Assembly (NCBI RefSeq): GCF_014192335.1
Contig: NZ_JACHXU010000005.1
Location: 124,001-188,000, forward strand
Source: Aporhodopirellula rubra
Lineage (GTDB): Bacteria; Planctomycetota; Planctomycetia; Pirellulales; Pirellulaceae
Direction of reading: 5' to 3'
Length of the DNA: 64,000 nucleotides
The notes below the pieces were generated by a model. That model worked only from the letters and a program-made list of their open reading frames with translations. It had not been told where the DNA came from and ran no database searches. Both the position numbers and the translations under genes were made by a program. Numbering within the stretch: position 1 is the stretch's first letter; each line of letters begins with the position of its first letter. Shown here piece after piece: positions 39,715 to 64,000 of the stretch.

Positions 39715-40054
39715 AGCGAGAAAAGACCACCGGTTGAGTGGACGCTGCGAGAAAAACTTCGCCGCTCCGTTCTCACCGGCAGTTAATCGGAACGTTCCCG
39801 CACAACGTGGACAAACCACGGCAACGTATGATTTGCTGGCATTGAGGTAGTTTGCATCGAATGGGCCCAATACGCCACAGCTCCTCCTGCTCCGCACGCA
39901 CGTAATAACACACATCGTGCGTTGGTGCCCGCTCTGCGACCTCGATCGCATGCTCTCTTCGCACTTTTAGGCTCAATTTGCGATCGGCATGATCATTGCA
40001 ACTCTTCGCATCAAACTTCCGATTTGAGCACACAAACGTAAAGGGAGTCATGCG
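39686..40054. other. Intergenic region carrying the acg promoter
   Basis: This 369-base region lies before the Acg-type gene. It carries the sigma-54 promoter listed separately and, upstream of it, dyad and half-site material: TGCGA/TCGCA arms at 39935-39950, GTGCG at 39917-39921 and CGCAC at 39960-39964. AGGGAG gives a ribosome binding site before 40055. No gene was seen. Confidence 0.6.
39985..40000 (+). promoter_or_regulatory. Sigma-54 (-24/-12) promoter of the Acg-type gene
   Basis: CGGCATGATCATTGCA has GG (39986-39987) and GC (39998-39999) exactly 10 bases apart. It agrees well with the sigma-54 consensus TGGCACG-N4-TTGCW: only positions 1 and 6 differ. The -12 GC is 56 bases before the ATG at 40055, as it is for the cytochrome c' and USP genes. 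Confidence 0.75.
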
Positions 40055-41065
40055 ATGACACTCACCTATAACAGCGCTGCCATGCAGCAACGCACCAGCG
40101 GTCTGAAGAAACGACTGCGATTGGCGATCGAGTTCGCCGTGATGGCTCCTTCAGGACACAACGCACAACCATGGAAGTTTCATATTGTCCGAGATGGCGT
40201 TGAACTATTCGCCGACCGGACTCGTGCCTTACATGTCGTCGATCCCACCGATCGAGAATTGACAATCAGTTGCGGCGCGGCTCTTTATCAATTGCGTCTC
40301 GCACTCAACTGCGACGCTCTGGCAACGCTCGTCCATATTTTGCCAGATCCAGCTCGTCCCGATCTGCTAGCAAAACTCCGGATCAGTGGTCCTCACACTC
40401 CCGGCGAGGAAGAACTGGAGCAGTTTCGCGCGATCTCGCAGCGCCGAACGAACCGCAAACCTTTCGATACCAAGCCCGTCCCCGCATCCATTTTTGACGA
40501 GTGGTACTTGGATTCGAAATCCGAGAACTGTTGGTTGCAACTGATTGACGAGTTTACTCAAAAACACCTGATCGCCGATCTCGTGATTGAAGGCGACCGA
40601 ATCCAAGGCAGTGACAAGGCATTCCGACGTGAACTCGCGAAATGGGTACACGCAAATCGAAGCACCCGTCGCGATGGCATGCCAGGATATGCCCACGGCG
40701 TTGGCAACATAGCCTCCTACCTGGGACCGCTTCTCGTCCGCACGTTTGACTGGGGTGAAGGTCAGGCAGCGAAAGACAAGCAGTTGGCGGAGGGTTCTCC
40801 GTTGCTGGCGATTCTTGGCACCGAAGAGGATACCCCTGCAGCCTGGATCGCATGCGGACAAGCACTCGCGAAGTTGTTGCTCCTCGGCACCGCGAGAGGC
40901 TTATCAGCATCGTTCCTTAACCAACCCATCGAAGTCTCGTCACTACGTCCGCAATTAGGCGAATATTGCGATAACGAAGGTTTTCCGCAAATCCTGTTGC
41001 GTTGGGGCTATGGTCGTGAAGTCCAACCGACACCTCGCCGTGCGATCGAAGATGTTCTGATTTAG
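40055..41065 (+). CDS. acg: Acg-type FMN-binding nitroreductase-fold protein
   Basis: This 336-residue protein matches the Acg family: a two-part nitroreductase fold with LRLAIEFAVMAPSGHNAQPWKFHI, SCGAALYQLRLAL, RRTNRKPFDTKPV and GEYCDNEGFPQILLRWGYG. Acg proteins bind FMN but lack clear nitroreductase activity; in mycobacteria acg (Rv2032) belongs to the DosR dormancy regulon. AGGGAG 7 bases before the ATG supports the start. A sigma-54 promoter lies 56 bases upstream. It converges with ppsA across a bidirectional terminator. Here it probably acts in the redox/hypoxia response of the hydrogenase island (inference from neighbours). Confidence 0.85.
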   Translation: MTLTYNSAAMQQRTSGLKKRLRLAIEFAVMAPSGHNAQPWKFHIVRDGVELFADRTRALHVVDPTDRELTISCGAALYQLRLALNCDALATLVHILPDPARPDLLAKLRISGPHTPGEEELEQFRAISQRRTNRKPFDTKPVPASIFDEWYLDSKSENCWLQLIDEFTQKHLIADLVIEGDRIQGSDKAFRRELAKWVHANRSTRRDGMPGYAHGVGNIASYLGPLLVRTFDWGEGQAAKDKQLAEGSPLLAILGTEEDTPAAWIACGQALAKLLLLGTARGLSASFLNQPIEVSSLRPQLGEYCDNEGFPQILLRWGYGREVQPTPRRAIEDVLI

Positions 41066-41223
41066 TCAGACAGGAACAGCAGTCGCCGTCTTCGGTTGGC
41101 GTGTCATCAAGCTCCATAACTGCACGTCAAAACCGCAACCATACCGCCATACTCGCTTTTCAGTGCGCGACGTCCTTTCGAGGGTGGCGTCACTATTGCC
41201 TTCCGAATTGCCATTGAACAAAA

Positions 41224-41257: not shown

Positions 41258-41284
41258 GCGTTTGCGTTCACTAACCGACTCGCC

Positions 41285-43714
41285 CTAAGACGATGACGCC
41301 ACCAGATCGTCTTCCACATGCAACACGTGCATGGTGGTTTTCAAAACGGCATCCGGTGTCAGCGAAATGCTATCGATGCCTTCTTCGACGAGAAACTGTG
41401 CAAAGTCAGGGTAGTCACTCGGGGCTTGGCCACAGATACCAATTTTGGTTCCGCTTGCTTTTGCGGATCGAATAACGCTGCGGATCATTCGCTTCACCGC
41501 TTCGTCGCGCTCGTTGAACACATGAGCAACGATTTCGGAGTCGCGATCGACACCCAACGTTAACTGAGTCAGGTCATTCGATCCGATCGAAAATCCATCG
41601 AAGATTTCCGCAAACTGATCCGCGAGAATGACGTTGCTCGGGATCTCACACATGACATAAATCTCAAGTCCATCTTGACCGCGAACGAGTCCATATTTCG
41701 CCATTTCCTGTTGCACCAATTGTCCTTCTTCGATCGTACGACAGAACGGGATCATCAGTTTCAAATTCACCAGCCCCATTTCCTGCCGAACCTTCTGAAC
41801 CGCCCGACATTCGAGGCCAAACGCCTCTTGATAACGAGGGTGATAGTAGCGTGACGCCCCGCGAAATCCGATCATTGGGTTGGCCTCTGTCGGTTCAAAA
41901 CCTCTCCCTCCGATCAACCCTGCGTACTCATTCGTCTTGAAATCACTCAAACGGACGATCACTTCCTTCGGATAGAACGCCGCACAGATCATCGCGATCC
42001 CTTCGGCGAGCTTGTCGACATAGAATTGAGGTTTGTCGCCGTAACCGCGAGTGACCTTTTCGATCTCGGCACGAGTCACTTCGTCGAGGTCATCGAAACA
42101 AAGCAATGCTTGCGGATGAATCTTGACGTAGTTGCTGATAATGAACTCTTCCCGTGCTAGTCCGACACCGTCTTGAGGAATCATCGAAAACGCGAATGCT
42201 TCATCGGGCGATGCGACGTTCATCATGATTTTTGTCTTCGGGCGCCGGAGCGTGCCCAAATCAATCGTTTCGACCTCGAAGGGAAGGATCCCTTCATAAA
42301 CATTTCCGGCATCCCCTTCGGCGCAACTGATCGTGACCAGATCACCGCACCTGAGTTCATCGGTCGCGTTGCCAGTTCCGACGATCGCCGGCACTCCGAG
42401 TTCACGACTGACGATTGCCGCGTGACAAGTGCGACCGCCACGATTGGTAACGATTCCGGCGGCCCTTTTCATAATCGGTTCCCAATCAGGGTCGGTTTTG
42501 TCCGTGACCAAGATTTCACCCGATTGAAACATTGCCAATTCATGCACGTCTCGAATCAGTCGAACTGGACCGGACGCGATCTTCTCACCGATCGAGCGTC
42601 CCGTCAGCAACAACTTCCCACGTTCCTTCAGATGGAACCTTTCGAGTGTGCTAACGGATCGGCGTGACTGAACCGTTTCCGGCCTCGCCTGCACGATAAA
42701 CAACTCGCCGGTGTTACCATCCTTTGCCCATTCCATGTCCATAGGACAATGGGAGCCTTTACGCGTGCTGTAGTGCTCTTCGATTGCGCACGCCCATCGA
42801 GCGAGCTGCAAAATATCGTCATCCGAGATCGCGTACTTCGCCGATTGTTCAGGTGTCACGGGGATATTTTTGGTCATCTTGCTTCCGCCAACATCGTAAA
42901 CCAGTTTCATTGATTTCGAACCGAGACTCTTTTTGAGAATCGGGCGACGTCCTTGCCGCAACGTTGGCTTGAACACGTAGTACTCATCTGGGTTGACGCT
43001 CCCTTGCACCACATTTTCGCCCAATCCATAGGCGGCGTTGATTAGCACTGCGTCGCGAAAACCGCTCTCGGTATCAATCGAGAACATCACCCCCGACGTT
43101 GCCAAATCAGATCGAACCATTTTCTGCACACCAATCGACAGCGCGACTTGCATATGGTCGTACCCGTGCTGATACCGATAGGAGATGGCACGATCCGTGA
43201 AGAGCGATGCGTAACACCGTCGGCAGGCGTCGAGCAAGAATGCTTGGCCTCGAACATTCAGATACGTTTCCTGCTGTCCGGCAAAACTGGCATCTGGTAA
43301 GTCTTCCGCCGTCGCGCTGCTTCGGACAGCAACATCTGCCAACTGATGATTGTGCGCATCGCACAGATGGTGATAGGCCGTCACGATCGAGTGACTCAGC
43401 GAATCAGGCAACGGCGCATCAAGAATCATGTGCCGAATAATCATCGCATGATGCTGCAGATTCCCAACATCCTCCACGTCGATCCCGCTGAGTATCTCAG
43501 GAATTTCCTTATCCAAACCTGACTCGCGTAGGAAGACGCGATAACCATGCGCGGTGGTTGCGAAGCCGTTGGGAACACGAATTCCCTGGGGCGTCAGTTC
43601 GCGGTACATTTCGCCCAGCGACGCGTTCTTACCGCCAACGACGGCCACATCGTCCATACTGATTTGGTCGAACCAGCGTACGAGATCCAAGGTGTTTTCT
43701 GTCGCAACGCTCAT
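41285..43714 (-). CDS. ppsA: Phosphoenolpyruvate synthase
   Basis: This 809-residue protein converts pyruvate plus ATP to phosphoenolpyruvate, AMP and phosphate. The N-terminal ATP-grasp part is seen in VGGKNASLGEMYREL and the DLPDASFAGQQETYLNV block. The phosphohistidine domain has the catalytic His in GGRTCHAAIVSREL, in the form typical of PEP synthase rather than pyruvate phosphate dikinase. The C-terminal PEP-binding barrel has GIDSISLTPD and SNDLTQLTLGVDRDS. I start at the ATG at 43714, with GGGAG 8 bases upstream. It may use fermentative pyruvate for gluconeogenesis when oxygen is low. It sits 148 bases behind the 37-residue membrane protein gene. Confidence 0.93.
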   Translation of the reverse strand: MSVATENTLDLVRWFDQISMDDVAVVGGKNASLGEMYRELTPQGIRVPNGFATTAHGYRVFLRESGLDKEIPEILSGIDVEDVGNLQHHAMIIRHMILDAPLPDSLSHSIVTAYHHLCDAHNHQLADVAVRSSATAEDLPDASFAGQQETYLNVRGQAFLLDACRRCYASLFTDRAISYRYQHGYDHMQVALSIGVQKMVRSDLATSGVMFSIDTESGFRDAVLINAAYGLGENVVQGSVNPDEYYVFKPTLRQGRRPILKKSLGSKSMKLVYDVGGSKMTKNIPVTPEQSAKYAISDDDILQLARWACAIEEHYSTRKGSHCPMDMEWAKDGNTGELFIVQARPETVQSRRSVSTLERFHLKERGKLLLTGRSIGEKIASGPVRLIRDVHELAMFQSGEILVTDKTDPDWEPIMKRAAGIVTNRGGRTCHAAIVSRELGVPAIVGTGNATDELRCGDLVTISCAEGDAGNVYEGILPFEVETIDLGTLRRPKTKIMMNVASPDEAFAFSMIPQDGVGLAREEFIISNYVKIHPQALLCFDDLDEVTRAEIEKVTRGYGDKPQFYVDKLAEGIAMICAAFYPKEVIVRLSDFKTNEYAGLIGGRGFEPTEANPMIGFRGASRYYHPRYQEAFGLECRAVQKVRQEMGLVNLKLMIPFCRTIEEGQLVQQEMAKYGLVRGQDGLEIYVMCEIPSNVILADQFAEIFDGFSIGSNDLTQLTLGVDRDSEIVAHVFNERDEAVKRMIRSVIRSAKASGTKIGICGQAPSDYPDFAQFLVEEGIDSISLTPDAVLKTTMHVLHVEDDLVASSS

Positions 43715-43862
43715 CGCTAGAACTCCCGTGAAAGTAACTAAACCCAATCTAAACTTCAGAACGCCCGATGGTGCTCTTTACCTAATTCACACCAGTGAGT
43801 GAACGCCGGAAATCATCAATCACTCAATCCTATGAGAGTATTCGCTGGCACCAAAACTCTCT

Positions 43863-44091: not shown

Positions 44092-44559
44092 CTAGCGGAT
44101 TGCGGCGTTTTTTCCCTCCGACGAAACTGCCCGTTGTTCGTCGAAGTCAGATTCCCGGATTGATTGATGACACCGAACACAACTGACCGTGAGTTGGTGA
44201 TAGGCCAACGTCACACCATCGATGTTCTCCTTCCGTGCTTGTCGCATTAACTCTTCGGTGACGCGTTCGAACGCCCGAACGTGTCCGCGGTATCCCTCGT
44301 GCCGACTGCGAACAAACCCTTCGATCTTGTTCAGCAATCGCATTTGATTCGCATTCATCTCAATCAGGTCAAAGTCGCCCATCGAGAGCCCACGCAAAAT
44401 GCCTCCGGAATAGTCGAGTTTCTTTTGCATCCAGAAGTCGAGCGGTTGCTCCGCCGTTTCGCTCGGAACAATCTCACCGTCAGGAAACTCGCCCTCATCC
44501 TGAGCAGCCAACGGTGACGCAAGAAACACCACCATTAAAACCAATTGAATTTGACGCAT
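44092..44559 (-). CDS. Secreted cytochrome c'-like protein
   Basis: This 155-residue protein has a signal peptide (IQLVLMVVFLASPLAAQ) and one heme motif, CVRCH, near residue 130, after a run of amphipathic helices (FWMQKKLDYSGGILRGL, ANQMRLLNKIEGFVRSRHEGYRGHVRAFE). This is the four-helix cytochrome c' design with the heme near the C-terminus, and a role in NO or redox handling in the periplasm is possible. GGGAG lies 7 bases before the ATG. A strong sigma-54 promoter sits 56 bases upstream, the same spacing as for acg and the USP gene. It is divergent from the cNMP-binding/hydrogenase beta unit. Confidence 0.82.
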   Translation of the reverse strand: MRQIQLVLMVVFLASPLAAQDEGEFPDGEIVPSETAEQPLDFWMQKKLDYSGGILRGLSMGDFDLIEMNANQMRLLNKIEGFVRSRHEGYRGHVRAFERVTEELMRQARKENIDGVTLAYHQLTVSCVRCHQSIRESDFDEQRAVSSEGKNAAIR

Positions 44560-44613: not shown

Positions 44614-44629
44614 GGCAAAGCCTGTGCCA
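44614..44629 (-). promoter_or_regulatory. Sigma-54 promoter of the cytochrome c' gene
   Basis: On the minus strand TGGCACAGGCTTTGCC matches the consensus TGGCACG-N4-TTGCW at nearly every fixed position, with GG and GC 10 bases apart. The -12 GC is 56 bases from the ATG at 44559. This is the best sigma-54 match of the window. Confidence 0.8.
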
Positions 44630-44672
44630 CCAATCAAACGAGCCAAACCTATCCGTCTGAATGCGCATAAAA

Positions 44673-44697
44673 GCACGACGTGCGTATTCGCTCGCAC
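44673..44697. promoter_or_regulatory. GTGCG/CGCAC dyad, candidate shared enhancer
   Basis: GCACGACGTGC (44673-44683) is a dyad with a single-base centre. Overlapping it, GTGCG (44680-44684) and CGCAC (44693-44697) form a dyad with an 8-base spacer. It lies midway between the two divergent sigma-54 promoters at 44614 and 44759, about 60-70 bases from each. This is where an NtrC-type activator would bind. Confidence 0.5.
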
Positions 44698-44758: not shown

Positions 44759-44774
44759 TGGAACGACGATTGCG
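44759..44774 (+). promoter_or_regulatory. Sigma-54 promoter of the cNMP-binding/hydrogenase beta unit
   Basis: TGGAACGACGATTGCG has GG and GC 10 bases apart and differs from TGGCACG-N4-TTGCW at two fixed positions. It lies 28 bases (from the -12 GC) before the ATG at 44801. It is divergent from the promoter at 44614-44629. Confidence 0.7.
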
Positions 44775-44800
44775 ACGCAAAGGTGTGGAGGGTTCTACTG

Positions 44801-45280
44801 ATGCATGACAAAGCCACGCCACAGATGCTTCGAGAGTTGCAAGTCGGAAACGATCTACCCGAAACCGACCAGATCGAATTGGCTAGTATCGCCAACGTTG
44901 TCAGTTTCAATGCTGACGAGCGCGTATTCCGCGAAGGCGACAAACACTCGTTCATCTACTGGCTGCTCGACGGGAGCATTTCACTCGAAATGAGTTCCGG
45001 CGTCCCCGCCGCGAAGGCTCTGTTGACGCTCGGCCACGGCGACATCCTGGCATGGTCGGCATTCCTGGCAGGCGGACGCATGACCGCGACAGCGCGAGTC
45101 GCGGAACCGACACGATTGGTGCGGTTGGACATCCAGGAACTGCGGAACTTGTGTCAAGCAAACCACGAAATCGGCTTTCGCGTGATGGAACACCTGGCAT
45201 CACAACTCGCTCAAAGACTACTGGCAACGCGTTTGCAATTGTTAGATCTCTTTCATTCCCCTAACGGGAGCAACGAGTGA
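44801..45280 (+). CDS. Cyclic nucleotide-binding-domain protein without DNA-binding domain
   Basis: This 159-residue protein is a single cNMP-binding beta-roll of the Crp/Fnr type: ERVFREGDKHSFIYWLLDGSISL, then the turn GHGDILAWSAFLAGGRMTATARVAEPTRLVRLD, and a C-terminal helix. It ends where a Crp protein would begin its helix-turn-helix, so it cannot bind DNA as Crp does. GGAGGG 8 bases upstream favours the ATG at 44801 over a GTG 18 bases earlier. Its stop overlaps the GTG start of the hydrogenase beta-like gene (GTGA). Such a domain beside this Fe-S subunit may gate the hydrogenase in response to a nucleotide or redox signal (inference). Confidence 0.85.
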   Translation: MHDKATPQMLRELQVGNDLPETDQIELASIANVVSFNADERVFREGDKHSFIYWLLDGSISLEMSSGVPAAKALLTLGHGDILAWSAFLAGGRMTATARVAEPTRLVRLDIQELRNLCQANHEIGFRVMEHLASQLAQRLLATRLQLLDLFHSPNGSNE

Positions 45281-46395
45281 ATACGAACGTGAACCAACCT
45301 GAAGGCTTTATGCAACGCGATGAACTTCAAACACTGCTCGATCTGCTAGGGCAGCAGGGGTACGAAACCATCGGCCCCACCATCCAACAGGACGCGATCG
45401 TTTACAGAAGCATTCAGTCAACCAAAGAATTACCGCTGGGATGGACTGACGAACAAACCCCGGCCGTCTATGAACTTCACCGTGATGACCATCAATCCGT
45501 CTTTCGGTTCAACTCGAGCCCCGACTCTTGGAAACGTTTCCTATTTCCTGCGTCTCTCGAGATCGGAACGGCAAAGTTGACCGACAACGGTTGGGAATTT
45601 GACGCGCCGAACGAACCAACGCCCCGCTATGCATTGTTCGGCGTTCGCGCATGCGACCTCGCCGCGATCGCCGTTCAAGATCGTGTTTTTCAAGAGAACG
45701 CGTACGTCGATCCCGCCTATCAACGACGACGGAAGGCTGCCTTCATTGTGGCCGTCAATTGTGTGACGGCCGCATCGACATGTTTTTGTCGTGCGATGAA
45801 TACGGGGCCCGAATGCGATTCCGGATTCGACCTCCTGCTGACCGAGATTACCGACGGATTCATCGTCCGCTCCGGATCCGCCTCCGGTCAAGCGATACTG
45901 GCCGAACTCAACCTCGAACCGCCAACCTCCCTCCAGATCAACGAGGCCGAATCCGAAGTTGCCAACGCGAGCGACCAACAAACCAAACGTTTCGATAAAG
46001 AGGGCGTTCACGATCTTCTAGCGAAGAATCTCGAAAATGCTCACTGGACCGACGTAGCGGAACGATGCCTGTCCTGTGGAAATTGCACCATGGTTTGCCC
46101 CACCTGCTTCTGTTCCACCGTAGGAGACGAATCCAACCTTGCCAACACCGAAGTCAAAAGAGTTCGCCGGTGGGACAGTTGCTTCAACATTGACTTCAGT
46201 CATACCGCCGGTGGCGTGGTGCGCAACGACATTCGCAGTCGATACCGACAATGGCTCGTTCACAAATTGGCGACCTGGGAAGACCAATTTTCGGTAACAG
46301 GCTGCGTCGGCTGCGGACGCTGCATCACATGGTGTCCCGTCGGCATTGATCTCACCGAAGAAGTGGCCGCAATACGCAAAACGAATGCAACGTAA
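45277..46395 (+). CDS. hyhB: 4Fe-4S dicluster protein, sulfhydrogenase beta-subunit type
   Basis: This 372-residue protein resembles the beta subunit of group 3b [NiFe]-hydrogenases (sulfhydrogenases). Its N-terminal part has a conserved Cys region ([34 protein letters not shown]). The C-terminus has two 4Fe-4S cluster motifs: [16 protein letters not shown] and [14 protein letters not shown]. It would pass electrons between the gamma/delta subunits and another acceptor such as sulfur compounds. The GTG start overlaps the cNMP-binding gene stop by 4 bases. It lies about 8.6 kb from the gamma, delta and alpha genes, with regulators and other genes between, rather than next to them as in typical operons. 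Confidence 0.85.
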
Positions 46396-46485
46396 AACGA
46401 TTGCGACGAGACCGAACAAACATTGAAACCGCTCACCAACGCAGTGATCTGCCCGCCCATCCCCCTCCACTCGGAGACGAATACC

Positions 46486-47073
46486 ATGACGAAATACAAC
46501 GAGAATTCGACATTAGCTCGCCGCGCCCAACTGGGTTCGTTCTTTGAAGAACTGGAGGATCGAATCGTTCAAAAGCTGCGAACCGAAGCCAGCAGTGAGG
46601 AAGGTCGAGCCGAATTGTTGCGAAGCACCGGTCTGCATGACGAAGTGTTGCTGAATGAGTTGAGTAGTCTAGGAATCCCCGCTGATGGCTTGATGGCACT
46701 GCGTTTATTCCCACTGATTCTCGTCGCGTGGGCCGAAGACGATGCAGATGCGAAGGAACGCACCGAGGTGCTCTCCCAAGCACTGAAGATCGGTATTCGC
46801 CAAGACACCACGGCGTGGATTTTGCTCACCCAGTGGCTCTCGAAGAAGCCACCGGGGCTCGGCGTGGACGCTTGGAAGCGTTACGTACACGAGATCTTTG
46901 CATCAATGTCGGATGTTGCGAAATCGCGGCTTATTCAACTCACTGAATCCCAAATGCTACACGTTGCCAAAGCATCGGGCGGTCACTTCGGGTTCGGAAA
47001 GGTATCGAAAAAAGAAGCCGCAATCATTCGTCAGATCACCACGGCAATGCGGCAGCAAACGTTGATGCGATAG
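46486..47073 (+). CDS. TerB-like helical protein
   Basis: This 195-residue cytoplasmic protein has no clear active-site motif. Residues about 70-115 ([31 protein letters not shown]) look like the helical TerB domain, in which acidic residues after a hydrophobic helix can bind metal. The second half is helical and ends in [21 protein letters not shown] start at the ATG at 46486, with GGAG 9 bases upstream; the longer frame adds 21 unlikely residues. It lies 90 bases after hyhB on the same strand and may be co-transcribed with the cNMP-binding/beta unit. The TerB call rests on pattern only; function unknown. Confidence 0.6.
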
Positions 47074-56623: not shown

Positions 56624-57915
56624 GTTCCACGCGTAAGATTACCGTCAACGCATTGACGCGTGTCGAAGGAGAAGGGGCGCTGCACATCCGGATCCGGGAC
56701 GAATTGATTGAAAGCGTACGACTCGCGATCTATGAGCCACCACGTTTTTTCGAATCGTTCTTGCGTGGACGAGCGATCGAGGAGGTGCCCGATCTCACCG
56801 CTCGCATCTGTGGGATCTGTCCGGTGGCCTATCAGATGACGTCCGTGCACGCGATCGAAAACTCGCTTGCGATCGCGATCGATCCCGAAATCCGTCGACT
56901 TCGGCGGTTGCTCGTCTGTGGCGAGTGGATCGAGAGTCATGTGTTGCACATCTTCCTGCTCAATGCCCCTGACTTTTTTGGTTGCCACAGCGGCATCGAA
57001 TTGGCTGAACGGTTTCCCGATCAGATCAACACCGGACTGCGCATTAAAAAAATTGGCAATCGATTGCTCGAAGTGCTCGGCGGCCGGGCCGTCCATCCGG
57101 TCAACGTCCGGGTCGGGGGTTTCCATCATCTGCCTTCCAAAGATGAACTGAAAACGTTGTTGCCAGACCTGCGTTGGAGCCTCGAAGCCGCTATCGAATC
57201 GACACGGTGGATCGCGGGTTTTGATTTCCCTGATTTCGACCTCGACTGTGAGTTGATCAGTTTACAAAACAACGACGAATACCCATTCAATGAAGGCGTT
57301 ATTGCATCGACTTGTTGTCCGTCGATCAACGTCAACGAATACGAACAGCATTTCGGCGAAAACCAAGTCGAATACAGTACCGCGTTGCAGTCCTCTCGAC
57401 GGGACAGTTCGGCGCCGTATCTCCTCGGACCACTTGCACGAGTTGCGTTGAACTCGCGCCAGCTATCTCCGTCTACGAAGCATTTGATCGAAACGGCATG
57501 TCCACCATTGCCGCTGACGAACCGTTTCCAAGCGATTATCGCTCGAAGCCTCGAAGTCGTTCACGCATTGGAGGAAGCGATCGATGTGATCGAGAACTAT
57601 TCTCCACCGTATCACGCATTCACCAACTATCGCCCACACGAGTCGGCAGGTTGTGCCGCCACGGAGGCACCTCGTGGCATGATCTACCATCACTACGGGA
57701 TCGATTCACGCGGAATGGTTGCCTCCGCCAACATCGTCCCTCCAACATCCCAGAACCAATTACAAATTGAATCAGACTTGCGGGAATTTTTACCGCAATG
57801 GTTGAACGATTCCGACGAAACGATCGCATCCGAGGCCGAAAAACTGATACGCACCTACGACCCGTGCATCAGTTGTTCGACTCACTTCCTGAAGTTAACG
57901 ATCGATCGATCATGA
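56620..57915 (+). CDS. hyhL: [NiFe]-hydrogenase large (alpha) subunit
   Basis: This 431-residue protein carries the [NiFe] active site. The N-terminal L1 motif is ARICGICPVAYQM and the C-terminal L2 motif is DPCISCSTHF, giving the four Cys ligands of Ni and Fe. EGEGALHIRI near the start is also conserved. It lacks a signal peptide. About ten residues follow the L2 motif's His, and would be removed by the maturation protease encoded next. It starts with GTG, overlapping the delta stop. Motifs and subunit set suggest group 3b (NADP-linked, bidirectional, sulfhydrogenase-like). Confidence 0.93.
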   Translation: MSSTRKITVNALTRVEGEGALHIRIRDELIESVRLAIYEPPRFFESFLRGRAIEEVPDLTARICGICPVAYQMTSVHAIENSLAIAIDPEIRRLRRLLVCGEWIESHVLHIFLLNAPDFFGCHSGIELAERFPDQINTGLRIKKIGNRLLEVLGGRAVHPVNVRVGGFHHLPSKDELKTLLPDLRWSLEAAIESTRWIAGFDFPDFDLDCELISLQNNDEYPFNEGVIASTCCPSINVNEYEQHFGENQVEYSTALQSSRRDSSAPYLLGPLARVALNSRQLSPSTKHLIETACPPLPLTNRFQAIIARSLEVVHALEEAIDVIENYSPPYHAFTNYRPHESAGCAATEAPRGMIYHHYGIDSRGMVASANIVPPTSQNQLQIESDLREFLPQWLNDSDETIASEAEKLIRTYDPCISCSTHFLKLTIDRS

Positions 57916-58373
57916 ACAGCCAAACGTGCCTAATCGGACTCGGCAGCCCTCACGGTGACGATCAGTTCGGGTGGGCAGTTATAGATCGACTTGCCACGAT
58001 GGGACTATCGCACGTTACGCTAACCAAATCGGAACACCCGGTTGATATCCTCGGTATGCTCGACGCCAACGAGCGAGTGATCGTCGTGGATGCGGCGGAA
58101 GGTTTGCCGCCGGACGAGCCGATTCGCAAACTCCAAATCGCCAATGCAATCGACATCCGGATCTTCCGCGAGACTCCCCACCGGGGCACCCATGACATGG
58201 GTCTCGAGTCTGTTTTTCGCCTAGCCCGTTCGCTTAAAAAGCCCACCGATCATGTTACGCTCTGGGTAGGAAAAGGCGAACAATTCGAACCATTCAGTCT
58301 CATGTCGGCCACCACCCAATCTAACTCTGTCCGGTGTGCAGAATTGATTGCGAGCGAGGTGAGCGATGCATGA
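57912..58373 (+). CDS. Hydrogenase maturation protease
   Basis: This 153-residue protein matches the HyaD/HoxW/HycI endopeptidases that clip the C-terminal tail of the large subunit after nickel insertion. IGLGSPHGDDQFGWAVID carries the conserved metal-binding Asp, IVVDAAEGLPPDE the second acidic site and RGTHDMGLESV a conserved His. The ATG at 57912 overlaps the alpha stop (ATGA). It ends with a run into hypA, overlapping by 8 bases. Specific for this hydrogenase by position. Confidence 0.9.
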   Translation: MNSQTCLIGLGSPHGDDQFGWAVIDRLATMGLSHVTLTKSEHPVDILGMLDANERVIVVDAAEGLPPDEPIRKLQIANAIDIRIFRETPHRGTHDMGLESVFRLARSLKKPTDHVTLWVGKGEQFEPFSLMSATTQSNSVRCAELIASEVSDA

Positions 58374-58731
58374 AATATCACTCGTTAGAAGCCTCGTTCG
58401 TCAAGTCGACCAGATCGCCACGGACCACGATGCCAATGCGGATGCGGTCCAGGACATTACCATCGAGATCGGTCCGCTTTCGGGAGTCGAACCGGAATTG
58501 GTACGAATGGCTTATGATCAACTCTGTAATCAAGAACGTCGTCCGCCTGCCACCTTAACGATCGAGCTATCCTCGCTTCAGGTGAGCTGCCTTGATTGCG
58601 AGAGCGATACCGAACTTCAAGATTTCACATTTCGTTGTGGGCAATGTCATTCTGGACGCGTTCGAGTCATCAGCGGCGATGAGTTCCGTTTACTCTCAAT
58701 CACTTTCGAAGAAGGTGCCACTCTTGCCTAG
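58366..58731 (+). CDS. hypA: Hydrogenase nickel-insertion protein HypA
   Basis: This 121-residue protein begins MHEISLVRSLV, where the first His binds nickel. It has a zinc site CLDC and CGQC, 25 residues apart. It passes nickel with HypB to the hydrogenase large subunit. The start overlaps the protease gene by 8 bases, and its stop overlaps the TTG start of hypB by 8 bases. Confidence 0.94.
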   Translation: MHEISLVRSLVRQVDQIATDHDANADAVQDITIEIGPLSGVEPELVRMAYDQLCNQERRPPATLTIELSSLQVSCLDCESDTELQDFTFRCGQCHSGRVRVISGDEFRLLSITFEEGATLA

Positions 58732-59401
58732 TAAAACCCTTCTCATCAATCGCGACATTCAATCCGAAAACCGTGCCGCGGCCCAGCGACTGCGTCTCGC
58801 GTTCACGCAGACGGGAACCTTCGTCGTGAATCTCGTTTCATCGCCGGGAGCAGGCAAAACCAGCTTGCTCGAAGCGACCTGCCGGTGGTGGAAGAACAAA
58901 TGGAAAACCGCGGTTTTGGTCGGCGACTTAGCGACCGAACGCGACGCCGATCGTCTCCGTCCTTTTGTACCGGTGCAGCAGTTAACGACGGGTGGCGGAT
59001 GTCATCTGGAGTTACCACTCGTCGAAAAAGGTCTCGCCAAACTGCCGAACGAACGCTTTGATTTCTTGTTCATCGAAAACGTAGGAAACTTAGTTTGCCC
59101 CGCCTCTCACGATCTCTCAGAACATCTTCGCGTTGTGTTGCTCAGCACGACCGAAGGCGATGACAAACCGGGCAAGTACCCGAAGATGTTCCGCACCAGC
59201 GACGTGATGATCGTCACCAAAATGGATCTGGCACCCCACGTTCCATTCAACGTCGAGCAAGCCACCCTCGACACACGTCGTATTCGCGAATCCATTGATG
59301 TGATTGAAGTCAGCTCGCTTCATGACCAGGGAATTTCACATTGGTGCCGAATGCTCGAGCAACGTCGAAATACCATGCTGTCCGAAAGAGCAATCCCATG
59401 A
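58724..59401 (+). CDS. hypB: Hydrogenase nickel-insertion GTPase HypB
   Basis: This 225-residue GTPase has Walker A in SSPGAGKTSLL, the switch region VGDLATERDADR, a metal-binding Cys/His in TGGGCHLE, and VTKMDLAP as base-recognition motif. It lacks the His-rich N-terminal tail that stores nickel in some species. The best start is TTG at 58724: GAAGG lies 8 bases upstream and the family's first conserved residues follow soon after; upstream ATG codons lie inside hypA out of phase with the family. Its stop overlaps the hypF start (ATGA). Confidence 0.9.
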   Translation: MPSKTLLINRDIQSENRAAAQRLRLAFTQTGTFVVNLVSSPGAGKTSLLEATCRWWKNKWKTAVLVGDLATERDADRLRPFVPVQQLTTGGGCHLELPLVEKGLAKLPNERFDFLFIENVGNLVCPASHDLSEHLRVVLLSTTEGDDKPGKYPKMFRTSDVMIVTKMDLAPHVPFNVEQATLDTRRIRESIDVIEVSSLHDQGISHWCRMLEQRRNTMLSERAIP

Positions 59402-61692
59402 GGGACACGTTGCCCGACACCGTCGCGCGATCAACATTCCTGTTACGAGGTTTGGTGCAGGGACAAGGCGTCCGTCCAACGATTGCCAACCTTGCCTCAG
59501 ACCTTGGCATCCGCGGGACAGTCCGCAATTGTAGCCGAGGAGTAGAGATCGACGCATTTGCCCCCCCCTCATCACTGGCCTCATTCGCAAAGGCATTAGC
59601 ATCAACGTTTGCAAACGCCACCTTGCAATCGAATACCGCGAATCGCAATTGCCAATCGAAACCTTCCCGTTTCCGAATTATCGAAACTCTCGCTGGAGAT
59701 CGCGTCCAAACCACCGTACCGTTGGATTTAGCAATTTGTCAGGATTGCCTCGCGGAAGTGCGATCGAAATCGAACCGACGTTTCGGATATCCGTTCAACA
59801 CCTGCACACGCTGTGGGCCACGTTATTCCATAATCACAGCGATGCCATTCGACCGCGACTTGACAAGCATGTCGGCGTTCCCGATGTGCTCTCAATGCGA
59901 AGCCGAATATCGCAACCCGAATGACCGACGATTTCACGCACAAACGATATCCTGTCCCGATTGTGGCCCCAGATGCTGGGTCACGGATCGACTAGGAAAC
60001 GTTCTCGCCAGCGGTCGCGATGCCGTCATTTTCGTCGCCGAAGAAATCCTGGCAGGTCAAATCGCGGCGGTTAAGGGTATCGGTGGTTACCAGCTAATTT
60101 CCGACGCAACCAATGACGATGCTGTTGGGCGACTTCGGCTTCGAAAACAACGCCCGAGCAAACCGTTGCCAGTTATGGTCGGTGACACCGACGCGGTCGC
60201 GGCCATTGCAAACGCACGCGAACACGAAAACGCAGCATTGCAAAGTCACGTCAATCCGATCGTCTTACTGACGTCACTGAGCAGGCGGATCGTTTCACCA
60301 CAAGTGGCAGGCTCGCTGAACACGATCGGTGTTATGCTGCCGAGTTCGGCATTGCACGCGATGATTACCGATGCGGTCGGCCGGCCGATCGTCGTGACCA
60401 GTGGCAACCGACACGGATCGCCGATCATTTTTGAAAATTCCGTCGCCGCATCCGATCTGGCCAGCGTCGCGGACGTGATTCTGCATCATGATCGAGACAT
60501 CCTGCATCCTGTTGATGACAGCGTCGTGCAATGCGTTGACGATTTCACGATGACGATCCGAGGCGGCCGTGGTATCACCCCGCTGACCTTCTCGACATCC
60601 GATCAAAATCGCATCCTGGCCGTCGGCGGACATCAAAAACTCGCCCCTGCAATCCAAACGGGAGAAAGTCTCGTTCTCCTTCCACACATTGGCGACATGA
60701 CAACCGAAGCGTGTCGCATTCGGTTTCAAGAGTCACTGGATCAATGCCGGACGCTCTATCAGCTTGACTTCGATTCCGTCACACACGATCAACATCCGAA
60801 CTATTTCACAACCCAGTGGGCACAACAAAACACAACACCAGCGATCTCAGTCCAACATCATCACGCGCACATCGCTGCGTCGATGTTCGAGCACAACCTG
60901 GACGACCAAACGGTTCTCGGTATCACATTTGACGGCACGGGCTTTGGACAAGGGACCATTTGGGGAGGAGAGGTCCTCGAGGCAACGACAACATCCTACC
61001 AACGTGTCGCTCATCTCCGTCCGTTTCGATTGCCCGGCGGTGAATTCTCGATCAAACAACCGTGGCGTATAGCGGCTTCGCTCAACTCACAACTGCCTGG
61101 CTTCGCACCCATCGATCCCTGCCTGCAATTCGCAATCGATCGAGGACCACTGACGTCCAGCATGGGACGATTGTTCGATGCCGTCGCATCCATCGTGCTC
61201 GGTATCGACACGGTTGATTTCGAAGGCGAAGCCGCCATGCGACTCGAGGCAGAGTGTGACCGTCTCGAGGCTGAAACTTATCGGTTCGAGATCACCGATA
61301 ACGAGCCACTGCAAATGGATTGGGGTCCAGTCCTGCGACAGATCGACGAAGACAAGAAACTCATTTCGGCTGCGAAAATTGCGATGCGTTTTCATCACGC
61401 TGTTGCGAATCTAATCGTGGATATCGCGGCGAGATATCGAGACATCCCGTGCGTTTTATCCGGCGGTGTTTTCCAGAATCGCACCCTCTTGGAAGTGACG
61501 TCGCGTCTCGCTAGGCAACAATCACTTGACATCCGATTTCCTCGGGTGCTCCCAATTAACGACGGCGGCTTGGCAATCGGTCAACTCGTCGTTGCGTCGG
61601 CGACCATCAGTCGCAACTCGCACTCACGTCGCGACACATCCGACCGACTTCCTTGTGCACCATCGACCATGGGAGGTCACCCATGTGCTTAG
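59398..61692 (+). CDS. hypF: Carbamoyltransferase HypF
   Basis: This 764-residue enzyme makes the carbamoyl group for the cyanide ligands of the NiFe site. In order it has an acylphosphatase domain (FLLRGLVQGQGVRPTI), two zinc-finger-like stretches (CQDCLAEV with CTRCGPRYS, and CSQCEAEY with CPDCGPRC), a YrdC-like domain (AAVKGIGGYQLISDA) and a Kae1-like carbamoyl domain with the metal site HHHAHIAASM and FQNRTLLE. The length is normal. Its ATG overlaps the hypB stop and its stop overlaps hypC by 10 bases. Confidence 0.94.
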   Translation: MRDTLPDTVARSTFLLRGLVQGQGVRPTIANLASDLGIRGTVRNCSRGVEIDAFAPPSSLASFAKALASTFANATLQSNTANRNCQSKPSRFRIIETLAGDRVQTTVPLDLAICQDCLAEVRSKSNRRFGYPFNTCTRCGPRYSIITAMPFDRDLTSMSAFPMCSQCEAEYRNPNDRRFHAQTISCPDCGPRCWVTDRLGNVLASGRDAVIFVAEEILAGQIAAVKGIGGYQLISDATNDDAVGRLRLRKQRPSKPLPVMVGDTDAVAAIANAREHENAALQSHVNPIVLLTSLSRRIVSPQVAGSLNTIGVMLPSSALHAMITDAVGRPIVVTSGNRHGSPIIFENSVAASDLASVADVILHHDRDILHPVDDSVVQCVDDFTMTIRGGRGITPLTFSTSDQNRILAVGGHQKLAPAIQTGESLVLLPHIGDMTTEACRIRFQESLDQCRTLYQLDFDSVTHDQHPNYFTTQWAQQNTTPAISVQHHHAHIAASMFEHNLDDQTVLGITFDGTGFGQGTIWGGEVLEATTTSYQRVAHLRPFRLPGGEFSIKQPWRIAASLNSQLPGFAPIDPCLQFAIDRGPLTSSMGRLFDAVASIVLGIDTVDFEGEAAMRLEAECDRLEAETYRFEITDNEPLQMDWGPVLRQIDEDKKLISAAKIAMRFHHAVANLIVDIAARYRDIPCVLSGGVFQNRTLLEVTSRLARQQSLDIRFPRVLPINDGGLAIGQLVVASATISRNSHSRRDTSDRLPCAPSTMGGHPCA

Positions 61693-61928
61693 GGGTTCCA
61701 GGAAGAGTGGTCCGTTGGATCAATCGCGAGTCGAACTTTGCGAAAGCGGAGGTGGAGTTTTCTGGCGTCCGTCGCGAGATTCACATGGCCTGCGTGACCG
61801 ATGCCAATCTGGGTGACTACGTCATCGTGCACGCGGGTATTGCAATCTGTCTCGTCGACGAGGTGGAAGCGGAACAGACATTGGCGGAACTCAAATCGCT
61901 GGGCGAGAATTCTGATGAAACACCTTGA
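61683..61928 (+). CDS. hypC: Hydrogenase assembly chaperone HypC
   Basis: This 81-residue chaperone begins MCLGVPGRVV, where Cys2 forms the link to HypD and to the large subunit during Fe(CN)2CO delivery. GDYVIVHAGIAICLVDEVEA is the typical beta-barrel ending, and the family length is about 75-90. It overlaps hypF by 10 bases and hypD by 14. The ATG at 61683 is the only start that gives the required MC N-terminus. Confidence 0.93.
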   Translation: MCLGVPGRVVRWINRESNFAKAEVEFSGVRREIHMACVTDANLGDYVIVHAGIAICLVDEVEAEQTLAELKSLGENSDETP

Positions 61929-63021
61929 CGAATACCGTGACGCGGCGGCATCGCAATCGTTAATCACCGACATCCGTGCGAGAGCAACACGTCCTTGGGT
62001 ACTGATGGATGTCTGCGGCGGGCAAACCCACAACCTCGTCCGGTATGGCATCGAACGAGAATTGGCTGACTGTGTTGAACTGATTCATGGTCCTGGGTGC
62101 CCCGTCTGCGTCACCGCCACCGAACTAATTGACTTTGCCGTGGCACTTGCACTTCGCCCGAACACAATCGTCGCGAGTTTCGGTGACATGCTTCGCGTCC
62201 CAGGCAGTAGCCAGTCGTTGATGCAGGCACGTGAACGCGGCGGGAGAATCCAAATTGTCTACTCACCTCTCGATGCGTTAGCTCTTGCTCGCCAACACCC
62301 GAACGCTGAAATCGTTTTCCTGGCGGTGGGCTTTGAGACGACGGCCCCCGCGACTGCACTGGCGGTGATTCAAGCAACGAAGCTCAGCCTCAACAATTTT
62401 TCGATCGTTCCCGCTCACGTGCGTGTGCTTCCGGCCATGGAAACCATCATGCGAATGCCAGACAACCGCGTCGAGGGTTTTCTGGCCGCCGGTCACGTTT
62501 GCTGCATCACCGGTTTCGAAGCCTACCAACCTTTTGCGTCGCGGTTTCGCGTGCCTATCGTGATCACTGGTTTTGAACCGATTGATCTGCTGCGAGGAAT
62601 TTTGAAAACAGTCGAACTTTTGGAAACAGGACAGGCCATCGTAAAAAACCAGTACAGTCGAACCGTTCAACGTCAAGGCAACCTAGCCGCACAATCGATC
62701 ATCGACCAAGTATACGAAGTCGACGATCGAGATTGGCGCGGGTTCGGAACGATCTCGGGTGGAGGCTACCGACTGCGAGCGGAATACAGCCTCATGAACG
62801 CACGACAAAAGTTCGCCGACGTCCTACCGCCAAAGGGTCGGGGCGATGTCGATTGCCGCGGCGCCGACGTGATGTCGGGGAAAATCAAACCCAAACAATG
62901 CCCCGCCTTCGCAACCACGTGCACGCCGCAATCACCACTCGGCGCCCCCATGGTATCAAGTGAGGGTGCCTGTGCGGCGTACTATCGATTTGAACCATTG
63001 CCGATCAAGGTGCCATCATGA
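61915..63021 (+). CDS. hypD: Fe-S maturation protein HypD
   Basis: This 368-residue protein is the scaffold on which the Fe(CN)2CO unit is made together with HypC and HypE. MDVCGGQTHN holds the catalytic Cys, HGPGCPVCV the Cys pair, and HVCCITGFEAY a further Cys site. C-terminal Cys residues of the 4Fe-4S cluster are in the last 60 residues (CRGADVMSG, CPAFATTC). It starts at the ATG at 61915, inside hypC, and its stop overlaps hypE by 4 bases. Confidence 0.94.
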   Translation: MKHLDEYRDAAASQSLITDIRARATRPWVLMDVCGGQTHNLVRYGIERELADCVELIHGPGCPVCVTATELIDFAVALALRPNTIVASFGDMLRVPGSSQSLMQARERGGRIQIVYSPLDALALARQHPNAEIVFLAVGFETTAPATALAVIQATKLSLNNFSIVPAHVRVLPAMETIMRMPDNRVEGFLAAGHVCCITGFEAYQPFASRFRVPIVITGFEPIDLLRGILKTVELLETGQAIVKNQYSRTVQRQGNLAAQSIIDQVYEVDDRDWRGFGTISGGGYRLRAEYSLMNARQKFADVLPPKGRGDVDCRGADVMSGKIKPKQCPAFATTCTPQSPLGAPMVSSEGACAAYYRFEPLPIKVPS

Positions 63022-64000
63022 ACGCTCCCATGTCACCACTCGCGTGTCCTCGTCCAACAACATCAGATCAAACCATCACTCTGGCCCACGGTGAAGGCGG
63101 CAAGATGATGCGGAATCTGATTCGTGACCGCATCGTCTCGAAGCTCGGAGAAACGAACGTTCAAAGGTTCAGCGATGCCGCCTGCGTGGGAACGATCAAA
63201 GGCAACGTCGCGATCTCGACGGACAGCTATGTCGTTTCCCCGCTGTTTTTCCCGGGAGGCGATATCGGAACTCTCGCGGTCCACGGCACCATCAATGACT
63301 TAGCCATGGCGGGTGCCTCACCTCTCTTCCTCACACTATCACTGATTTTGGAAGAGGGGCTCCCTTTTGAAGTCTTCGACCGAGTCATCGACAGCATCGC
63401 CGAGACCGCGAACACCTGCGGGGTCCCAATCGTTGCCGGCGACACCAAAGTGGTTACCAAGGGAGCCGCCGACGGGATGTTCCTCAACACGACGGGCGTT
63501 GGAGTCCATCACGACGATCAACGCATGTCCGCGAAGCAAATTCAGCCAGGTGACACGTTAGTTGTGTCGGGACCGATCGCGCGGCACGGGATTGCTGTCC
63601 TCGCCGCTCGCGAATCGCTCGAATTCATGCCACCACCAGCATCCGATTCTGCCGCACTCCACCGAGTGGCAGCAGACTTACAAAGCGCACTTGGCAACGA
63701 TCTGAGAACCATGCGTGACGCAACACGTGGCGGTGTTGCCGCGGTGCTTCATGAGTGGGCCGAAGAATCCACTCTCGCGATGTGGGTCGACGAAGCCCAA
63801 CTTCCGCTGCTCCCTGAAACACGCGGCGTCTGTGAACTACTCGGTTTGGACCCGATGTTCGTCGCCAACGAAGGCACCTTTGTCGCGGCAATTGCTTCCC
63901 ACCGGACAGAAGACGCCATTTCGGTGATGAAAACTCATTCCAGTTGCGGCGATCCCGCACCGATCGGATACGCTCGTCGACGTGAAATTTCTCCGGTTTT
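63018..64000 (+). CDS. hypE: Carbamoyl dehydratase HypE, 3' truncated by the window
   Basis: The first 327 residues of HypE, which dehydrates the carbamoyl group passed from HypF to a thiocyanate on its C-terminal Cys. Visible are TLAHGEGGKMMRNLI, SDAACVGTI, ISTDSYVVSPLFFPGG, INDLAMAGASPLFL and RDATRGGVAAVLHEW, all family hallmarks of the ATP-binding AIRS-like fold. The C-terminal active-site Cys lies outside the window. It overlaps the hypD stop by 4 bases (ATGA) and closes the hypABFCDE run. Confidence 0.93.
   Translation, partial: MNAPMSPLACPRPTTSDQTITLAHGEGGKMMRNLIRDRIVSKLGETNVQRFSDAACVGTIKGNVAISTDSYVVSPLFFPGGDIGTLAVHGTINDLAMAGASPLFLTLSLILEEGLPFEVFDRVIDSIAETANTCGVPIVAGDTKVVTKGAADGMFLNTTGVGVHHDDQRMSAKQIQPGDTLVVSGPIARHGIAVLAARESLEFMPPPASDSAALHRVAADLQSALGNDLRTMRDATRGGVAAVLHEWAEESTLAMWVDEAQLPLLPETRGVCELLGLDPMFVANEGTFVAAIASHRTEDAISVMKTHSSCGDPAPIGYARRREISPV

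Follow-up and report, generated by a model that had tools for sequence, protein, structure and literature searches.

A candidate sigma-54 regulon with phased enhancer-like dyads at a hydrogenase and redox gene island of Aporhodopirellula rubra

The 64,000-nucleotide stretch of A. rubra DNA analysed here (the window) carries an island of hydrogenase and redox genes at 39985..64000. Judged from its sequence, this island probably forms one branch of a Pirellulaceae sigma-54 regulon, driven by the NtrC-class response regulator at 48194 through phased GTGC-N6-GCAC dyads, with low oxygen as the signal. Once phosphorylated, the regulator would bind dyads that share one side of the DNA helix, in most cases 40-90 bp above a -24/-12 promoter. 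It would drive sigma-54 transcription of the acg, cytochrome, cNMP-hyhB and universal stress protein (USP)-hydrogenase-hyp genes, as well as of its own gene. The products would help cells through oxygen-poor periods without growth by maintaining redox balance (through an NAD(P)-linked hydrogenase), the supply of carbon and energy, and the state of proteins.

As far as we know, Planctomycetes offer few examples of regulons whose DNA code has been defined. Here a regulator comes together with a binding motif, a candidate oxygen sensor and a promoter rule from which targets can be predicted in new genomes, and the proposal is therefore directly testable; it also places a DosR-like hypoxia/dormancy kit under the control of another promoter and activator type.

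Gene content of the island

Pfam and NCBIfam profile searches bore out the gene names given in a preliminary description of 39985..64000, with the cytochrome c' standing as a likeness. The island includes an Acg-family FMN-binding oxidoreductase (40055..41065, + strand; NF047509, 326.9 bits, cut-off 199) and ppsA, encoding phosphoenolpyruvate synthase (41285..43747, - strand; above the family cut-off). The small c-type cytochrome (44092..44559, -) has a single CVRCH motif and an N-terminus that is signal-like by eye; because the family profile searches (Pfam and NCBIfam) gave no match to it, "cytochrome c-prime" is a mere likeness. Profile matches identify a cNMP-binding-domain protein (44783..45280, +), the sulfhydrogenase-type 4Fe-4S beta subunit hyhB (45277..46395, +) and a TrkA-type K+ channel protein (47135..48166, -), and a hypothetical 216-aa protein (46423..47073, +) recurs in islands linked to the regulator.

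The proposed activator (48194..49660, -) consists of a receiver, an AAA+ domain with GSFTGA and a Fis-type HTH. It is very unlikely to belong to a ZraSR-like zinc or envelope-stress system: planctomycete COG2204 promoter genes are labelled ZraR in the accessible portion of a 2025 survey (PMC12316311), but this protein scores 301 with the ZraR model against a cut-off of 760, and the targets are of redox/hypoxia type. Its NCBIfam scores also fall below the cut-offs of the AtoC (405.6/714), NtrC (394.4/558.6) and NorR (341.6/476) equivalogs. Two kinases follow: the PAS histidine kinase HK1 (50083..51168, -), whose start was reassigned to 51168 from the TTG at 51300, and HK2 (52257..53750, -), a receiver-PAS-kinase hybrid. 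Between them lies a HemG-like flavodoxin gene (51551..52243, +; 121.4 bits, below the cut-off of 142).

The remaining genes are all on the + strand. The tandem USP gene (54086..55006; profile match) was taken to start at ATG 54086, not with the long open reading frame from 53870. It is overlapped by the open reading frame start of the hydrogenase gamma subunit (FAD/NAD, FeS; 54918..55832), followed by the small (delta) subunit (55829..56623; profile match), the large (alpha) subunit (56620..57915; both RICGIC and DPCISCSTH found) and a maturation protease (57798..58373; 43.5 bits, just below the cut-off of 47.45). Next come hypA, hypB and hypF (58366..61692; profile matches), hypC (61683..61928; identified by the MCLGVPG start of its translation), and hypD and hypE (61801..64000), of which hypE continues beyond the window edge. 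USP to hypE may form one transcript; gene order alone ties the hyh genes to the USP promoter. The alpha, beta, gamma and delta subunits belong to the sulfhydrogenase type but score below the sulfhydrogenase equivalog cut-offs; both CxxC nickel motifs are present. The closest solved structure to the large subunit is "Sulfhydrogenase 1 subunit alpha" (E 3e-65), and we take the enzyme to resemble group 3b. The search gave one match for rpoN.

Conserved -24/-12 promoters

All four of the -24/-12 sites reported previously are present: those of acg (CGGCATGATCATTGCA; 39985..40000, +), the cytochrome gene (TGGCACAGGCTTTGCC; 44614..44629, -, the earlier 44614 being the other end of this minus-strand site at 44629), cNMP-hyhB (TGGAACGACGATTGCG; 44759..44774, +) and the USP-hydrogenase-hyp run (TGGTACGCAAACTGCA; 54016..54031, +). 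The regulator gene has a weak -24/-12-like site (49754..49769, -; score 8.6). A pair of -24/-12-like elements between HK1 (51216..51231, -) and the flavodoxin gene (51268..51283, +) had been overlooked; 51268+ is partly kept in three species. Neither has a dyad of the kind described below, which was found at 0/8 HK1/flavodoxin sites examined.

Site score alone is weak evidence, since the top-scoring site of the whole window (45222+) falls within coding sequence and genome-wide consensus matches with at most one mismatch number 290, below the 540 of a reversed control. Conservation was therefore used to decide on sites. The relatives used for footprinting were Aporhodopirellula aestuarii (L056), with the same gene order and a regulator at 80%, and Rhodopirellula sallentina (L057). 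Three of the four promoters are retained in sequence in syntenic relatives though the surrounding DNA has diverged; by base count, the acg promoter keeps 15 of 16 across all three species and the cNMP promoter 15 of 16 in a two-species comparison with A. aestuarii. The longest invariant run in the three-species alignment of the USP upstream region is TTGGTACGCAAACTGC. The cytochrome promoter lies outside the A. aestuarii stretch that was aligned, and in another genome (G036) an orthologous cytochrome composite (dyad plus promoter) keeps both dyad distances, 40 and 57 bp. Orthologous promoters at the USP/hydrogenase, acg, cNMP and flavodoxin genes thus retain the GG-N10-GC elements, the loss of which would have counted against the original proposal.

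Upstream sites scoring at least 13 are concentrated at USP genes (12/37, versus 14/372 other genes; p 2e-7); at the same threshold, AAA_33 (0/17), DHOD (0/13), VIT1 (0/7), trkA (0/7) and HK2 (1/34) genes show no such enrichment. The window ppsA has no upstream site of score 13, and 4 of 6 ppsA genes surveyed have one, mostly in near-identical Stieleria-type loci. Sigma-54 sites occur at 19/36 USP genes where the regulator is present versus 0/19 where it is absent (p 5e-5), a comparison confounded by domain structure: regulator-less USP genes are mostly single-domain and those with the regulator mostly tandem. Carrera-Reyna et al. (2025), in the portion of the article available, describe Planctomycetia sigma-54 promoters as enriched at UspA (COG0589), COG2204 and chaperone genes; unlike here, that portion contains no planctomycete enhancer, regulator assignment, or hydrogenase or oxygen links (PMC12316311).

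The GTGC-N6-GCAC dyad and its phasing

A blind search above -24/-12 promoters returned an enhancer-like dyad, GTGC-N6-GCAC, at 9 of 32 promoters; for any dyad in 400 shuffles the maximum was 5, reached in 6/400. The same dyad with spacers of 0-5 and 7-15 occurs at 0-2 of the 32 (GTGC-N5-GCAC at 0/32), and GCGC-type dyads were not outstanding among them. The dyads lie on a single helix face, at about 39, 50, 60, 70, 81 and 91 bp above the -24 element, a phasing supported by the exact sites (11; R 0.81, p 8e-4) and again by 14 that did not belong to the discovery set (R 0.84, p 6e-5).

Exact dyad-plus-promoter composites number 55 in 72 related loci, versus 0-5 for nine control dyads, and 71 of 79 composite promoters are outside genes. 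Their targets in the 72 loci include USP (21), regulator genes (10), acg (3) and aldolase (3), among others. Allowing one mismatch gives 91 composites versus 8-57 for controls, with R 0.63 versus 0.16-0.56, so that the controls are less clean. Counted by genome, strict composites are no more numerous than in the reversed control (29 vs 42 in the genus; 24 vs 26 in 12 family genomes): the composite signal is placement, not number. The A. rubra genome itself has two strict composites, both within the island.

Each dyad at a window target has one mismatch. The acg dyad (39917..39930, +) is 61 bp above the -24 element, as in A. aestuarii (61) and close to R. sallentina (60). The dyad at 44663..44676 lies 40 bp above the cytochrome promoter and 89 bp above the cNMP promoter; that at 44680..44693, common to these divergent promoters, is 72 bp above 44759 and is exact in A. 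aestuarii, at 71 bp. Two overlap above the USP promoter (53928..53941, +, at 81 bp; 53938..53951, +, at 71 bp). The only exact dyad (49814..49827) is above the regulator gene, 51 bp above the 8.6-scoring site, suggesting candidate autoregulation.

It is highly improbable that chance matches account for the sites and that the island is an unregulated cluster: single consensus matches are indeed common, with no genome-wide excess, but the species footprints, the dyad, the helical comb, the control dyads and the genomes lacking the regulator all argue against chance. The promoters, the dyad, its phasing, its co-occurrence with the regulator and the dyads above regulator genes are features of the DNA itself, and point to the 48194 regulator as the likely activator and the protein that would bind the dyad. 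Its paralogue on another A. rubra contig (C18) might instead be the true activator, the window regulator having drifted to another job. We consider this unlikely. The paralogue is 68% identical to the window regulator, with an almost identical HTH, and retains a full sensor cluster; however, composites lie above genes of the window regulator's own subfamily in 10 loci of relatives, and the C18 stretch (L047) yielded none.

The candidate oxygen sensor and related systems

The regulator had been proposed to respond to low oxygen or redox stress through the PAS kinases of the window. Its role as sigma-54 activator stands as likely. The FixL-type heme histidine is absent from HK1, whose PAS varies freely at that position, which leaves this kinase unable to carry the oxygen claim, and alignment of the HK2 PAS revealed no FixL-type heme signature. 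HK2 may nevertheless phosphorylate the regulator. A sister cluster on C18 encodes a receiver-receiver protein, a heme-PAS kinase, a hybrid kinase and the paralogous regulator. In two relatives (G066 and G070) a FixL-type heme-PAS kinase adjoins a hybrid kinase near the orthologous regulator; G065 has the same gene order, with a candidate kinase gene in that place. The FixL-type signature (HDGYL and IIGIGRE) is present in 9/9 kinases aligned, and the C18 kinase matches solved FixL (1dp6; E 3e-37, 131.8 bits), HDGYL aligning with HDSYI.

These observations support low oxygen as the probable signal, read by the C18 heme-PAS kinase. Following Myxococcus, from which the sign is assumed, the heme sensor would be active with oxygen and keep the hybrid kinase off. 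There is a smaller but real chance that the promoters and dyad serve a general quiescence set with another signal (redox, energy charge, nitric oxide or stationary phase), as the absence of heme features from HK1 and HK2 and the general stress genes (USP, Hsp20, CBS) would allow; the heme-PAS kinases near regulators of this subfamily, one of them compared with solved structures, speak against it. The regulon is spread across several islands, and the heme-PAS kinase lies outside the window island.

The Mycobacterium DosR hypoxia regulon includes acg, USPs and, in M. smegmatis, a group 3b hydrogenase; DosR itself, an activator of the NarL/FixJ type, is paired with GAF-heme kinases and works without sigma-54. 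The earlier reading of a DosR-like set under sigma-54 holds for gene content: Acg, tandem USP, Hsp20, CBS and type IIA P-ATPase are shared, here spread over several islands and species and not all in the window, as is a group 3b-type hydrogenase in the case of M. smegmatis. Unlike DosR, the linked regulator is of the AAA+ NtrC class, with sigma-54 and phased enhancers. The heme-PAS module resembles FixL of rhizobia, whereas output is through NtrC/sigma-54, probably via a receiver-kinase relay, and not through FixJ/FixK. HoxA, HupR and FhlA respond to H2 or formate; as in the present case, they are NtrC-class proteins that act with sigma-54 on [NiFe] hydrogenase and hyp genes, but here a USP gene precedes the hydrogenase genes and the regulon is one of stress. 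We give even weight to a broader interpretation, a low-oxygen dormancy-like programme of Pirellulaceae combining a FixL-type heme kinase, a receiver-kinase hybrid, an NtrC-class activator and phased GTGC-N6-GCAC dyads, in which the DosR kit would have been gathered convergently and the relay duplicated, one copy specialising on the hydrogenase run.

The nearest known system is not DosR; it is NmpRSTU of Myxococcus xanthus (PMC11841059, PMC6211767), a hypoxia-responsive NtrC/sigma-54 relay. There, the CBS promoter is hypoxia-induced and dependent on NmpR and sigma-54, and USP, CBS and P-type ATPase genes are among the targets (PMC11841059). The Myxococcus sensor is believed to be active when oxygen is present, keeping the hybrid kinase off. 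The window regulator shares the NmpR class and architecture (receiver, AAA+, Fis-type HTH, sigma-54), and HK2 is an NmpS-like receiver-kinase hybrid near the regulator, with an additional PAS. Also shared are a separate heme kinase, paired enhancer dyads, sigma-54 promoters at targets, autoregulation (here predicted from sequence) and USP, CBS and P-type ATPase targets. The kinases here carry FixL-type heme-PAS, unlike the protoglobin heme sensor NmpU; the Nmp enhancer is GCGCA-N5-TGCGC, not GTGC-N6-GCAC; and the present set extends to hydrogenase, Acg, Hsp20, Ca-type ATPase and FBP aldolase. The comparison suggests that the NmpRSTU layout is not confined to myxobacteria and that its heme sensor can be exchanged; a 2018 paper had already noted homologues of nmpSTU in Planctomyces sp. 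SH-PL14 (PMC6211767). The window copy lacks local U and T genes, and NmpT-like two-receiver proteins occur in the C18 cluster and in one further locus (L120); the NmpT-like gene of another (L122) encodes one receiver in 133 aa.

Gene content of the hydrogenase island

The Aporhodopirellula rubra genome is available as a draft of 8.55 Mb. From 40055 to the right edge of the window, the gene names given in the preliminary description agree with family searches, and its observation of a sigma-54-wired hydrogenase and stress island is confirmed by gene typing and promoter comparison. The Acg-family assignment is secure, with 326.9 bits to NF047509 (cut-off 199). The large hydrogenase subunit has both the RICGIC and DPCISCSTH motifs, and its nearest matches are sulfhydrogenase 1 and another NiFe enzyme, a cytosolic hydrogenase, so we describe it as group 3b-like. 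The genes for a universal stress protein (USP), the gamma, delta and alpha subunits, the protease and hypA to hypE share one strand with close or overlapping frames, which suggests a single putative operon headed by the USP gene at 54086.

In Aporhodopirellula aestuarii (locus L056), the gene order from hypB to acg is identical to that of the window, and the regulator is 80% identical to the window's NtrC-class response regulator (48194-49660, minus strand). A 37-codon membrane-peptide ORF (MSDQRLPRSRHETLFWIAAG...; 43863-43976, minus strand) downstream of the cytochrome gene also aligns well with A. aestuarii. To the right of hypE in A. rubra (locus L002, C5:187001-207000), reading by eye showed large proteins resembling FG-GAP/ASPIC families and one protein in which the CxxCH motif occurs several times; the region has a single sigma-54-like site scoring at least 11, near 18159.

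Sigma-54 promoters and the GTGC-N6-GCAC dyad

The matrix used to score -24/-12 (sigma-54) promoters was set by hand from general frequencies and not fitted. Genome-wide, the bare consensus showed no excess over the control and was set aside. Sites of such quality are common, the window's best-scoring one lies inside a gene, and each of the window's promoters, taken by itself, could be a chance match. We judge them to be real from species comparison and not from single consensus matches. In an alignment of the USP upstream regions of the window, A. aestuarii and Rhodopirellula sallentina (L057), 102 of 306 ungapped columns are invariant, and the longest invariant run, TTGGTACGCAAACTGC (16 bases), is the -24/-12 element. 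Conservation is 15 of 16 bases at the acg promoter (three species) and at the cNMP promoter (two species), and the cytochrome promoter has an orthologous composite (dyad plus -24/-12 promoter, see below) in SV_7m_r (G036), with dyads likewise at 40 and 57. The promoters proposed in the preliminary description are thus supported. The flavodoxin promoter keeps GGCACA-N-C-N-TTCGC in three species; no invariant run of at least 7 was present in the HK1/flavodoxin alignment (HK1 and HK2 are the window's two PAS kinases).

When every possible 4-bp dyad was counted blind, GTGC-N6-GCAC, an enhancer-like sequence, was found upstream of 9 of 32 promoters, with 0.2 expected; the discovery promoters were hand-picked for gene identity (33 listed, two L122 entries sharing one key). 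The same dyad with other spacers occurred 0-2 times, and the best of all dyads over 400 shuffles reached at most 5. Genome-wide, the bare dyad showed no excess (139 sites against 246 for the reversed control) and was set aside. With up to one mismatch, dyad centres lie 38-40, 48-51, 60-61, 68-72, 81 and 88-89 bp above the -24 element (one at 57 bp belongs to a divergent promoter), and these clustered distances place the dyads on one helix face; the phasing test was run without 4 of the 27 one-mismatch dyads, which lay more than 95 bp away. The same spacing recurs in dyads from the USP survey that are outside the discovery set (R 0.84 for 14 sites, in a list that omits distances of 50 bp, from a site scoring 5.3, and 137 bp). 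HK1 and the flavodoxin gene have divergent sigma-54-like elements (51216-51283), but no dyad was found with them in any of eight HK1/flavodoxin cases, so the site there may be degenerate or the activator a different one.

In the neighbourhoods of regulator orthologues (59 loci), a site scoring at least 13 lies upstream of 12 of 37 USP genes; the background is 14 of 372 among other genes and approximately 1-2% in shuffled sequence. The corresponding counts are 13/64 for NtrC-class, 5/23 for HK1-like and 4/6 for ppsA genes, with no enrichment for AAA_33 (0/17), DHOD (0/13), VIT1 (0/7), trkA (0/7) or HK2 (1/34). Gene labels in these loci are not curated annotation; they are best BLAST matches of greedily chosen ORFs to the genes of the window plus as many as 28 further labelled genes, mostly Pfam-typed. 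USP genes precede AAA_33 and cytochrome genes in several loci.

Across 72 loci (1.25 Mb, including the discovery loci and related species, which are not independent in the counts), 55 exact composites were found against 0-5 for nine control dyads. When one mismatch was allowed, the totals were 91 against 8-57, so that only exact dyads separate cleanly. Composite distances again form a comb (38-40, 48-51, 59-62, 68-72, 78-84 and 90-93), and 71 of 79 composite promoters lie outside genes. The targets of these 71 are USP (21), regulator genes (10), unk216, a 216-aa protein of regulator-linked islands (3), aldolase (3), acg (3), CBS, ppsA, Hsp20 and cytochrome (2 each), and cNMP, Ca-ATPase and an ABC operon (1 each); the other 20 comprise 13 whose target is unlabelled and 7 lacking any gene within 400 bp. 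An ABC transporter operon (L132:4721-9092, genome G055) encodes an ATPase, an FtsX-type permease and an HlyD-type adaptor, and two exact in-phase dyads lie above its sigma-54 site.

Association of the dyad with the regulator

A composite lies above a regulator-subfamily gene in 10 loci, 4 of them closely related Rhodopirellula-type loci. The window's own regulator gene has a weak site, with an exact dyad 51 bp above it. The strict composite pattern occurs twice in the A. rubra genome, both times in this island, which speaks to specificity and not to independence, since the pattern was partly built from those sites. Strict totals elsewhere were not above the reversed control (29 against 42, and 24 against 26). 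In 13 genomes of the genus, 9 of 29 matches fall in regulator islands, all in discovery loci; among the 20 others, none of the four inspected is near a regulon-type gene. Of the 24 matches in 12 genomes of the family, 2 belong to the discovery set and 6 are new and adjoin a USP, cytochrome or regulator gene; among the 16 others, the two inspected are both within coding sequence.

USP genes have a site scoring at least 12.5 in 19 of 36 cases in five regulator-bearing genomes against 0 of 19 in eight regulator-less genomes, a comparison confounded by the mostly single-domain USP genes of the latter and made at a threshold chosen after the scores were known (top score without the regulator, 9.3). 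Genomes were classed as "regulator-less" when they gave no match at 1e-150 (G045 and G069) or when the best listed match had at most 46% identity. Of the 37 genes in the five bearers the sample took 36, and of the 6 in G045 and G069 it took 5, omitting two weakly matching proteins of 911 and 770 aa; the search E-value was 1e-5 for the first seven genomes and 1e-12 for the other six regulator-less genomes, and two more regulator-less genomes had no USP gene at the cut-off. With discovery promoters excluded, promoter plus dyad occurs at 7 of 30 against 0 of 19 USP genes (p 0.03). G045 and G069, members of the genus, have 3 and 5 USP domain matches against 11-16 in the five bearers.

New dyads led to further arms of the regulon in the A. 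rubra genome: on contig C14, USPs, a type IIA Ca-ATPase, a class I FBP aldolase and GlgX, along with DHOD-like, AAA_33 and cytochrome genes; and on C4, divergent Hsp20 and USP genes. The recount of one-mismatch controls and the USP confound temper our confidence, and with both weighed in we consider a sigma-54 regulon the likely account of the island.

A region of C5 (276-336 kb) was considered as another arm and rejected, since its 21 sites scoring at least 12 are accompanied by no exact dyad and only three one-mismatch dyads. One of these sites is perfect (TGGCACGTTCGTTGCA; C5:276001-336000, loci L003, L004 and L005). The surrounding genes include GrpE, glycogen debranching, DUF1206, BrkB-type, APP1 and AI-2E-type genes, and with a separate 553-aa NtrC-class regulator the region looks like a second sigma-54 general-stress regulon.

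Candidate sensor and nearest known system

The preliminary description had the regulator at 48194 activating a DosR-like set through the PAS kinases in response to low oxygen or redox stress. Sigma-54, this regulator and the DosR-like content stand; the interpretation was incomplete on the sensor and the nearest relative. HK1 was rejected as a heme-binding protein, its PAS domain having no heme histidine, and HK2 is a receiver-PAS-kinase hybrid. On contig C18, a paralogous regulator (68%) adjoins a receiver-receiver protein, a PAS kinase and a second hybrid kinase. This PAS kinase matches FixL (1dp6) with an E-value of 3e-37, aligning HDGYL on HDSYI and IIGIGR on IIGIGR, and HDGYL and IIGIGRE are invariant in all nine aligned kinases of the C18 type. 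The corresponding residues of FixL, a His and an Arg, are those that bind heme and ligand. In G066 and G070, a FixL-type kinase adjoins a hybrid kinase close to an orthologue of the window's regulator, and G065 has the same gene order. We propose that oxygen could be the signal and that the regulator may bind the dyad directly.

In NmpRSTU of M. xanthus (PMC11841059, PMC6211767), an NtrC-class regulator receives its phosphate from a receiver-kinase hybrid, which is held in check by a heme kinase thought to be on when oxygen is present. The regulator requires sigma-54, binds paired dyads, mostly 14-15 bp apart, and activates genes for CBS and USP proteins as well as a P-type ATPase with cbb3 oxidase, hemN and hemerythrin; the CBS promoter is hypoxia-induced (PMC11841059). 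Several paired dyads here are similarly laid out, 29-31 bp centre to centre, with others at 10-22 bp. The sensor domain and the dyad, however, are not those of NmpRSTU, and we therefore do not file the system under that name; by analogy, it would most likely work in an NmpRSTU-like manner. Earlier reports mention nmpSTU homologues in a planctomycete (2018; PMC6211767) and sigma-54 enrichment at planctomycete UspA genes (a 2025 survey; PMC12316311); our literature search, mostly of papers outside subscription, found no report of the dyad, the regulon or its hydrogenase link. In receivers of the regulator subfamily (48194-49660 and relatives), the invariant Lys-Pro is followed by a Cys (KPC), and most have another Cys later in the domain; a redox role for these residues is conceivable.
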